The notes beneath the pieces are model-generated. The model was not told where the DNA came from. It made no database searches and worked only from the letters and a program-made list of their open reading frames with translations. Below, one piece after another: positions 28,694 through 30,250 of a stretch of DNA of 64,000 nt. Position numbers and translations under genes: made by a program. The stretch spans positions 1-64,000 of the forward strand of contig JANWYH010000011.1 in the NCBI GenBank assembly GCA_025054715.1, given 5' to 3'. The stretch's first letter is position 1. Every line of letters starts with the position of its first letter. The stretch comes from Pyrinomonadaceae bacterium (lineage in GTDB: Bacteria > Acidobacteriota > Blastocatellia > Pyrinomonadales > Pyrinomonadaceae).

Positions 28694-29905
28694 TCACCAT
28701 CGCAGCAAAGCAGCCATTCCACCCATTTCTTTTATGAGTTTTTCTTCGGCATCGCCTCTTACAAACTCTAAACGTGCGCCAAATTCGGCAGCAAGTTCCC
28801 AAACATAATTGCGCAGAGCAACTCTTTCTGGCTGTTTGCATACGATTTTTGCCATTTCTTCCGTAGCCGCTATGAACTTTTGCTCCTTACAATACCAAGC
28901 TTGTTCTCTAAGTGACCATGGGAGAATCCATAAATTGACCCTTGCATACTGTAAAGCATCTAAAACTGAAGCCATGCCCCATAGCCCGCCTTTTTGCTTG
29001 ACCTGTTCTAGGAGTTCCATCTCAGCTTCCCGCTCAACCTTCTCTAACACTGGGAATATATACTCTTCAAAATCTTTTCTAGTGAGAGCCGTAGAGTTTG
29101 CTGGTCTCGGAATTCTAGCAACTATTCGATTTCTTGATCCTCGACTCATATAATTTTCAAAGTGATTAACTTGCCACTTTTCTCCCATTAACACGATTCT
29201 TTCTATTGCGAGGCTGTCAACAGCTTTGTCAAGTAGATAGGAAAGCCTTTTGTACTGTTTATGAAGAAGAGTATCTATTCTTGATGAAGCACGCTCTTTT
29301 GGACTCATTTCATCATAAAGCCCGCCAGGACGAGCACCACGCTTTTCAAACATTTCATTAACTTTCTGAGCTGCACCGTGTAACTCCTGCCATTCTTTGT
29401 CATCTATTTCACTAAAAACTTGCTCTTCTTCCCTGATCTCACCTAAGAAAACCTCGAAAAACTTCCAACCTTTTCCGGCAAGGTGTAATATACCTGTGCG
29501 TTCGTACTCATCTATAGCGAATAGAAGAGGATTTAAGTAAGGTTTGCCATAGTGCACTTCAATATGTCCTGATGCTAGGTCAACCACCGGCAACTCAATC
29601 TGTAGGTCTAAGCGTTCAAGCATCAGATCTAAATTAGCTTTGCTTGCAAAAAGAACCAAGGTCCGGGCACTCGGGCGATCAGTCTCTAACAGCTTAACTA
29701 CTTCATCACACAGAGAGATTAGGTTTTTATCGGCAGGTTGACTGTTTGATAACTCTCTGAGGGTAGTTTTTATGCGAGTAATCCATGCCCGATTTGTATT
29801 TTCAGGTTTTGCCGGGTTTACATCACAGTATATGGAGAGCGTAGGGTTTGATTGATCCTGGAATCTTTCGCGTATCACTTTTATTCGATTTTCAAAACCT
29901 AACAT
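28694..29905 (-). CDS. Bacterial eRF1-like (baeRF) protein
   Basis: The 403-residue protein looks like a bacterial archaeo-eukaryotic release factor homologue of the family-10 type. The N domain starts IKVIRERFQDQSNPTLSIYC. A middle domain includes RIVLMGEKWQVNHFENYM. The C-terminal L7Ae-like end has EFGARLEFVRGDAEEKLIKE followed by GGMAALLRW, a recurring ending in this group. The biochemical role is not established; proposed roles are in ribosome rescue or stress. No GGQ loop is visible. It is divergent from the small cysteine-rich gene. Confidence 0.7.
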   Translation of the reverse strand: MLGFENRIKVIRERFQDQSNPTLSIYCDVNPAKPENTNRAWITRIKTTLRELSNSQPADKNLISLCDEVVKLLETDRPSARTLVLFASKANLDLMLERLDLQIELPVVDLASGHIEVHYGKPYLNPLLFAIDEYERTGILHLAGKGWKFFEVFLGEIREEEQVFSEIDDKEWQELHGAAQKVNEMFEKRGARPGGLYDEMSPKERASSRIDTLLHKQYKRLSYLLDKAVDSLAIERIVLMGEKWQVNHFENYMSRGSRNRIVARIPRPANSTALTRKDFEEYIFPVLEKVEREAEMELLEQVKQKGGLWGMASVLDALQYARVNLWILPWSLREQAWYCKEQKFIAATEEMAKIVCKQPERVALRNYVWELAAEFGARLEFVRGDAEEKLIKEMGGMAALLRW

Positions 29906-29954: not shown

Positions 29955-29983
29955 TTGACTTTTTTCATTCAAGTTTTTAGCAT
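29955..29983 (+). promoter_or_regulatory. Sigma-70 promoter giving a leaderless transcript of the Cys-rich gene
   Basis: TTGACT at 29955-29960 and TAGCAT at 29978-29983 are spaced by exactly 17 bases. The expected transcription start (about 29990) falls on or next to the ATG at 29991, and no Shine-Dalgarno sequence precedes that ATG. A leaderless mRNA is therefore likely if this promoter is used. Confidence 0.55.
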
Positions 29984-29990
29984 ATTCTCC

Positions 29991-30179
29991 ATGAAAAACT
30001 TACTTTTGCTTTTCGTTGCAATATTAGTCCTAAACCCTTTGGTTTTGGCAAATAACAAAGGACAAGGCAGCGGCTGTCCTTACGTCTGTCGTGAGGAGTA
30101 TAAACTTTGCATAAAAAAGAAAAGCAAAAAGAAATGCAGGGTTGAATATAGAAGATGCATGCGTGGATGCCCTAGATAG
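29991..30179 (+). CDS. Small secreted cationic six-cysteine protein
   Basis: The ATG at 29991 gives 62 residues: a clear signal peptide (KNLLLLFVAILVLNPLVLA, cleavage near residue 20) and a 42-residue mature part. Six cysteines (29, 33, 40, 49, 56, 60) have mirror-symmetric spacing, C-X3-C-X6-C-X8-C-X6-C-X3-C. The two arms are similar (CREEYKLCIK and CRVEYRRCMR), so it may be a duplicated half. The mature part has 8 Lys, 6 Arg and 3 Glu, net about +11. A nested-disulfide helical hairpin is plausible. No family was recognised and the function is unknown. Confidence 0.7.
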   Translation: MKNLLLLFVAILVLNPLVLANNKGQGSGCPYVCREEYKLCIKKKSKKKCRVEYRRCMRGCPR

Positions 30180-30219: not shown

Positions 30220-30250
30220 ACCGCCGCTATGATGCCGTAAACGGCGGTTT
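30220..30250 (+). terminator. Possible terminator after the Cys-rich gene
   Basis: ACCGCCG (30220-30226) and CGGCGGT (30242-30248) form a 7-bp GC-rich stem with a 15-base loop. It is followed only by TT and then mixed sequence. It lies 40 bases past the stop of the small secreted protein. The rest of the 259-base gap to the next gene shows nothing else I can name. Confidence 0.45.

Follow-up and report, generated by a model that had tools for sequence, protein, structure and literature searches.

A small exported six-cysteine protein

The window, the 64,000-nt stretch of DNA analysed here, contains an open reading frame (ORF) of 62 codons plus stop (Table 1), whose translation (29991–30176) comprises a signal peptide, MKNLLLLFVAILVLNPLVLA, followed by a mature part, NNKGQGSGCPYVCREEYKLCIKKKSKKKCRVEYRRCMRGCPR. 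The mature part has a computed pI of 9.9 and the cysteine spacing C-x3-C-x6-C-x8-C-x6-C-x3-C; translation and computed charge reproduce the spacing, the 42-residue length and the net charge of +11 given in the original prediction. The mirror symmetry that was also proposed holds for the cysteine positions, a mirrored gap pattern having a chance of ~0.004 under random placement of the four inner cysteines within the span, while the arms are direct repeats (CxxxYxxC twice) with an unmirrored tyrosine, so that the symmetry is better described as pseudo-two-fold. The signal peptide, judged by eye like all signal peptides in this work, supports the description of the protein as secreted as far as export is concerned; beyond that, the destination in a diderm host may be the periplasm. 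When the 2.45-Mb genome is scanned with a DNA pattern for the six cysteines that allows a variable loop, this ORF is the single match; the reversed control gives none.

The gene is solitary: 85 bp separate it from a divergent gene whose release-factor-like product belongs to bacterial archaeo-eukaryotic release factor (baeRF) family 10, and on the other side a Uma2-family gene follows after 259 bp. No known RNA elements were found near the ORF. The −10 hexamer of the promoter-like sequence ends 7 nt before the ATG and there is no Shine-Dalgarno sequence, a layout that would be compatible with a leaderless mRNA.

Table 1. Features in and around the six-cysteine hairpin gene
Feature	Position	Strand	Basis
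Gene for baeRF family 10 protein	28694..29905	-	PF18854
Promoter-like TTGACT-17-TAGCAT, ends 7 nt before ATG	29955..29983	+	Consensus scan only, near chance expectation
ORF for six-Cys protein with predicted helical hairpin, 62 aa + stop, ATG start	29991..30179	+	Purifying selection against sister-species copy (L016)
Signal peptide, residues 1–20, cleavage after LVLA (by eye)	29991..30050	+	Sequence; L016 counterpart diverged faster than mature part
Mature protein, 42 aa, charge +11	30051..30176	+	
Predicted helix 1, residues 29–43; C29, C33, Y37 and C40 towards one face	30075..30119	+	AlphaFold2; helical-wheel angles
Predicted helix 2, residues 46–58; C49, Y53 and C56 towards one face, C60 just after	30126..30164	+	AlphaFold2; helical-wheel angles
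G+C-rich stem-loop, then T-rich DNA; possible terminator	30220..30248	+	Weak; no more stable than shuffles (z −0.99)

The only other genome of the genus that was compared (G001) carries one copy (L016), 73% identical, which is preceded by a strong ribosome-binding site, AAAGGAG, in contrast to the window copy. Between the two copies, synonymous differences amount to 0.89 per site, near saturation, whereas the nonsynonymous value is 0.18 for the whole gene and falls to 0.065 within the mature part; third codon positions hold 35 of the 61 differences (p = 1e-4), and the signal peptide has drifted. With synonymous sites nearly saturated and the mature residues hardly changed, the gene is real and selected, and strong purifying selection acts on the mature part.

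A predicted hairpin fold with probable nested disulfides

AlphaFold2 without an alignment predicts two helices (residues 29–43 and 46–58), and with a two-sequence alignment of the mature part the hairpin reaches a pLDDT of 93–94 over both helices; the prediction, which agrees with the helical hairpin proposed originally, is thus confident even from one or two sequences. On ideal helices, C29, C33 and C40 lie no more than 40 degrees apart, as do C49, C56 and C60, with the tyrosines beside them. A Foldseek search with both models gave no meaningful match.

The nested pairing 1-6, 2-5, 3-4 put forward for the disulfides gains indirect support from this geometry of facing cysteines and from co-variation. 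In particular, two relatives (G026 and G043, genus g26; loci L121 and L124) keep only C1, C3, C4 and C6, forming a plain twin CX10C protein with a 13-residue loop as in near relatives, and the joint loss of C2 and C5 supports the nested arrangement. The genome of the window also encodes an exported DsbA-like protein with a CPAC motif, which is available for disulfide formation.

A family of exported cysteine hairpins in the class

A first protein search in relatives returned two faint matches, both small exported proteins with the same cysteine frame, which revealed a conserved aromatic residue at the fourth position after C2 and again after C4. The family delimited by the resulting signature, C-x3-C-x3-[YF]-x2-C-loop-C-x3-[YF]-x2-C-x3-C, consists of small and mostly exported proteins. 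As a DNA pattern the signature matches in 19 of the 162 genomes of the class; three matches (L018, L028 and L039) that resemble chance repeats were dropped, and the remainder are small ORFs that almost all encode a signal peptide. Profile A5 extends the range to 25 of the 162 genomes and 16 of the 53 genera at E ≤ 0.001, two doubtful; G029:C7, G029:C16:76535 and G090:C296 are counted as members by the profile only, and the doubtful members L107/L108 were dropped. The family total is about 23 of the 162 class genomes, and about 30 loci, nearly all with a signal peptide, share the cysteine/aromatic frame. Among about 350 sampled genomes of the phylum outside the class, the pattern hardly occurs, with one plausible member (G177), and in a scan of genome contigs the sister copy was the sole match; the range given here refers to these class- and phylum-limited genome sets and that one contig scan.

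Homologues that keep the cysteines thus exist, as the original prediction had asked of relatives. Its statement that no family could be recognised holds for the databases, in that no Pfam, NCBIfam or PHROG model covers the family above cut-off, and fails in the sense that the protein is no orphan. Searches of phage, plasmid and viral-contig collections gave no match, so that within these sets nothing points to a phage or other mobile source.

The high positive charge, by contrast, is not supported as a trait of the family. Both the sister copy and relatives from several genera retain it, and the nearest cationic subfamily shares 33–39% identity with the window protein over the core, but across the family the core charge ranges from −8 to +13. 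Since charge is not conserved, a polycation activity would be at most a subfamily trait; what is conserved is the cysteine/aromatic frame.

Several members carry additional elements. Three members without a signal peptide (L037:1360–1611, L038:608–835 and L104:1342–1632) have a Lys/Ala-rich, histone-H1-like N-terminal tail before the six-cysteine hairpin. A long Asn-rich repeat tail (NGNTNGN...) follows the hairpin in L019:1369–2064, L024:1309–2025 and L032:197–766, and a Pro/Thr repeat follows it in L023. In the subfamily of L080:6996–7277, L081:7744–7983 and L089:2455–2730, CC opens each arm, the loop is short and the tail bears extra Cys.

Genomic context is conserved within subfamilies

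The window copy and the sister copy share no neighbour gene at their G000 and G001 loci, and one search, run without a positive control, did not find the PF18854 protein in the sister genome. No partner gene shared by all family loci was found. Inspection of neighbourhoods in the relatives likewise yielded no conserved adjacent immunity or export gene of the kind that the original prediction had pointed to and that would mark a bacteriocin with immunity.

Within subfamilies in other genera, context is conserved. Specifically, the cationic subfamily lies 3′ of nuoN on the same strand, roughly 27–90 nt away, in genera g21, g7, g25, g13 and g26. In G051, G041, G007, G025 and G037 the hairpin gene ends 300–365 nt after the nuoN stop on the same strand, in G026 and G043 the four-cysteine form starts 27 nt after nuoN, and in G002 (genus g2) the gene is also downstream of nuoN. 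Overall, a hairpin gene accompanies nuoN at 8 of the 32 loci of this nuoN type that were inspected. The window genome (G000) has only the other nuoN type, on contig 3; the window copy is not near nuo genes, and none were found near the sister copy. A radical-SAM gene near the nuoN-linked copies, which is not near the window copy, was considered as a sign of a RiPP or toxin-immunity system and rejected, as it sits among nuo and atp genes and is more likely a housekeeping gene.

A different arrangement is confined to another taxonomic family within the class, where acidic or neutral six-cysteine hairpins adjoin exported TPR-CHAT proteins (L078:6308–11700, L079:2531–7000 and L082:1–4940). The same loci hold an exported protein of 262–267 aa, which we read from its sequence as LolA-like, and ECF sigma/anti-sigma genes, and may represent an exported CHAT module. 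The window's 2.45-Mb genome, apparently a reduced one, has no CHAT matches; three relatives checked carry about 16 to 27.

Comparison with known helical hairpins

The protein was originally likened to alpha-hairpinins. Plant alpha-hairpinins are likewise short, cysteine-stapled helix-loop-helix proteins, often cationic, and the likeness stands for the helix-loop-helix fold, as predicted for the window protein. It does not extend to the cysteines: the published motifs are CX3C-X4-20-CX3C (4C) and CX3CX3C-X4-20-CX3CX3C (6C) (PMC11591084), whereas the window protein reads CX3CX6C-X8-CX6CX3C and the family CX3CX6C-Xn-CX6CX3C. Furthermore, the CX3C pairs flank the loop in the plant hairpins and lie at the open end in the window family.

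Mitochondrial CHCH or twin CX9C proteins (QCR6, COX6B and COA6, the last with CX9C-CX10C) are small two-helix hairpins with nested disulfides, and they reside in an oxidising compartment that adjoins the outer face of an energy-conserving membrane; a like build and setting are proposed here. QCR6, a cysteine-stapled helical hairpin of complex III, is the best profile match among solved structures, at a non-significant E of 0.059; the CHCH models in Pfam gave no match. The window protein lacks the two CX9C motifs (or CX9C with CX10C) of CHCH members. Most members of the family have six cysteines rather than four, with a CX10C outer frame (C1–C3, C4–C6) and a further cysteine inside each arm, and the family is bacterial with a Sec signal peptide. 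Only the relatives in G026 and G043 have a plain twin CX10C layout, a point of likeness to CHCH proteins.

The ribbon-worm neurotoxin B-IV is a solved helical hairpin with four disulfides (PMC6410017). Some relatives align with its model (PF07822, Toxin_13) over profile positions 12–52, with a best E of 0.002 for one relative and 9.7–11.8 bits among the relatives listed, against a cut-off of 21 bits; the window protein itself gave no match. The family has two fewer cysteines and is bacterial, and the likeness is likely convergence. Lepto_8Cys (TIGR04453) is another small, cysteine-rich bacterial protein, which one relative matches at E 0.014 and 15.8 bits, against a 34-bit cut-off, and the window protein does not match.

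The family may act in a similar way to alpha-hairpinins, CHCH proteins or B-IV, but we place it under none of them: its cysteines depart from the hairpinin motifs, CX9C motifs and a significant CHCH profile match are lacking, and its scores fall below the PF07822 cut-off. It is a new, previously unnamed family on a known kind of scaffold, which adds to bacteria an unannotated group of exported, cysteine-stapled helical hairpins otherwise best known from plants, venoms and mitochondria.

A candidate periplasmic binding scaffold

For the window protein we tentatively infer a disulfide-stapled binding scaffold that would reside in the periplasm and dock through its cationic surface on an anionic partner, in the accessory manner of CHCH proteins. 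After Sec export, the miniprotein would fold into two antiparallel alpha-helices, each of which turns its cysteines and one aromatic side chain inward, held by the three nested disulfides, which the DsbA-like CPAC protein could make. The outer surface would be free to vary and would set the partner, the Lys/Arg coat of the window copy giving a rigid module for an anionic one; the most plausible candidates are a respiratory complex of the inner membrane and anionic lipid at its surface, bound in a mode akin to the CHCH accessory proteins of the mitochondrial intermembrane space. In the cationic subfamily, linkage to nuoN and the QCR6 likeness (E 0.059, non-significant) point to a respiratory complex or its anionic lipids; as the window copy has no such link, we treat this as a lead of modest probability. 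Against the scaffold reading count the missing nuo link of the window and sister copies, the occurrence at only 8 of 32 nuoN loci, the three signal-less members and the non-significance of the QCR6 match.

A more far-reaching version, which we regard as quite unlikely, is that the class evolved its own CHCH-like proteins, Sec-exported and DsbA-oxidised hairpins, encoded in some genera directly after nuoN, that from the periplasmic side would help to assemble respiratory complexes or join them as supernumerary subunits, in parallel with the CHCH subunits of mitochondrial complexes. Should the copies linked to nuoN prove to be accessory proteins of complex I, which can be tested directly, they would be an independent bacterial case of the mitochondrial clamping of respiratory complexes by disulfide hairpins. 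Either way, this is a small scaffold that seems to be stable and accepts very different surfaces.

The size, charge and scaffold that recall alpha-hairpinins, the charge kept in the sister species and several genera, and the sporadic presence would also suit a bacterial alpha-hairpinin analogue, that is, a secreted antimicrobial or polyanion-binding peptide whose disulfide hairpin resists proteases and whose +11 surface binds competitors' LPS, nucleic acid or cell walls. We consider this unlikely, given the charge range of the family, the departure from the hairpinin motifs, and purifying selection in place of fast change; immunity, export or maturation genes are not conserved, and helical-wheel positions suggest no second hydrophobic face for membrane insertion.

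Rather improbable is a thiol metal site, in which the six cysteines would bind Cu(I) or Zn(II) in a copper chaperone or store instead of forming a staple. Some twin-CXnC proteins, COX19 for example, bind copper (PMC7909247), the six cysteines point inward in the predicted fold, and the window gene is 1.5–5 kb from resB/ccsA; the chief ground is that the three signal-less members would meet a reducing cytosol. The loss of C2 and C5 as a pair is nevertheless disulfide-like, an exported DsbA-like oxidase is present, and the conserved neighbours include no metal gene.

Hairpin trypsin inhibitors occur among plant hairpinins, and the Lys-rich loop between the inner cysteines could in principle serve as the substrate loop of such a serine-protease inhibitor; with a loop that varies widely in sequence and length and is not basic in many members, this is very improbable. 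Finally, that a chance ORF without function lies here, as its shortness and weak promoter evidence might suggest, is scarcely credible in view of the selection pattern, the sister copy with its good ribosome-binding site and the wide family.
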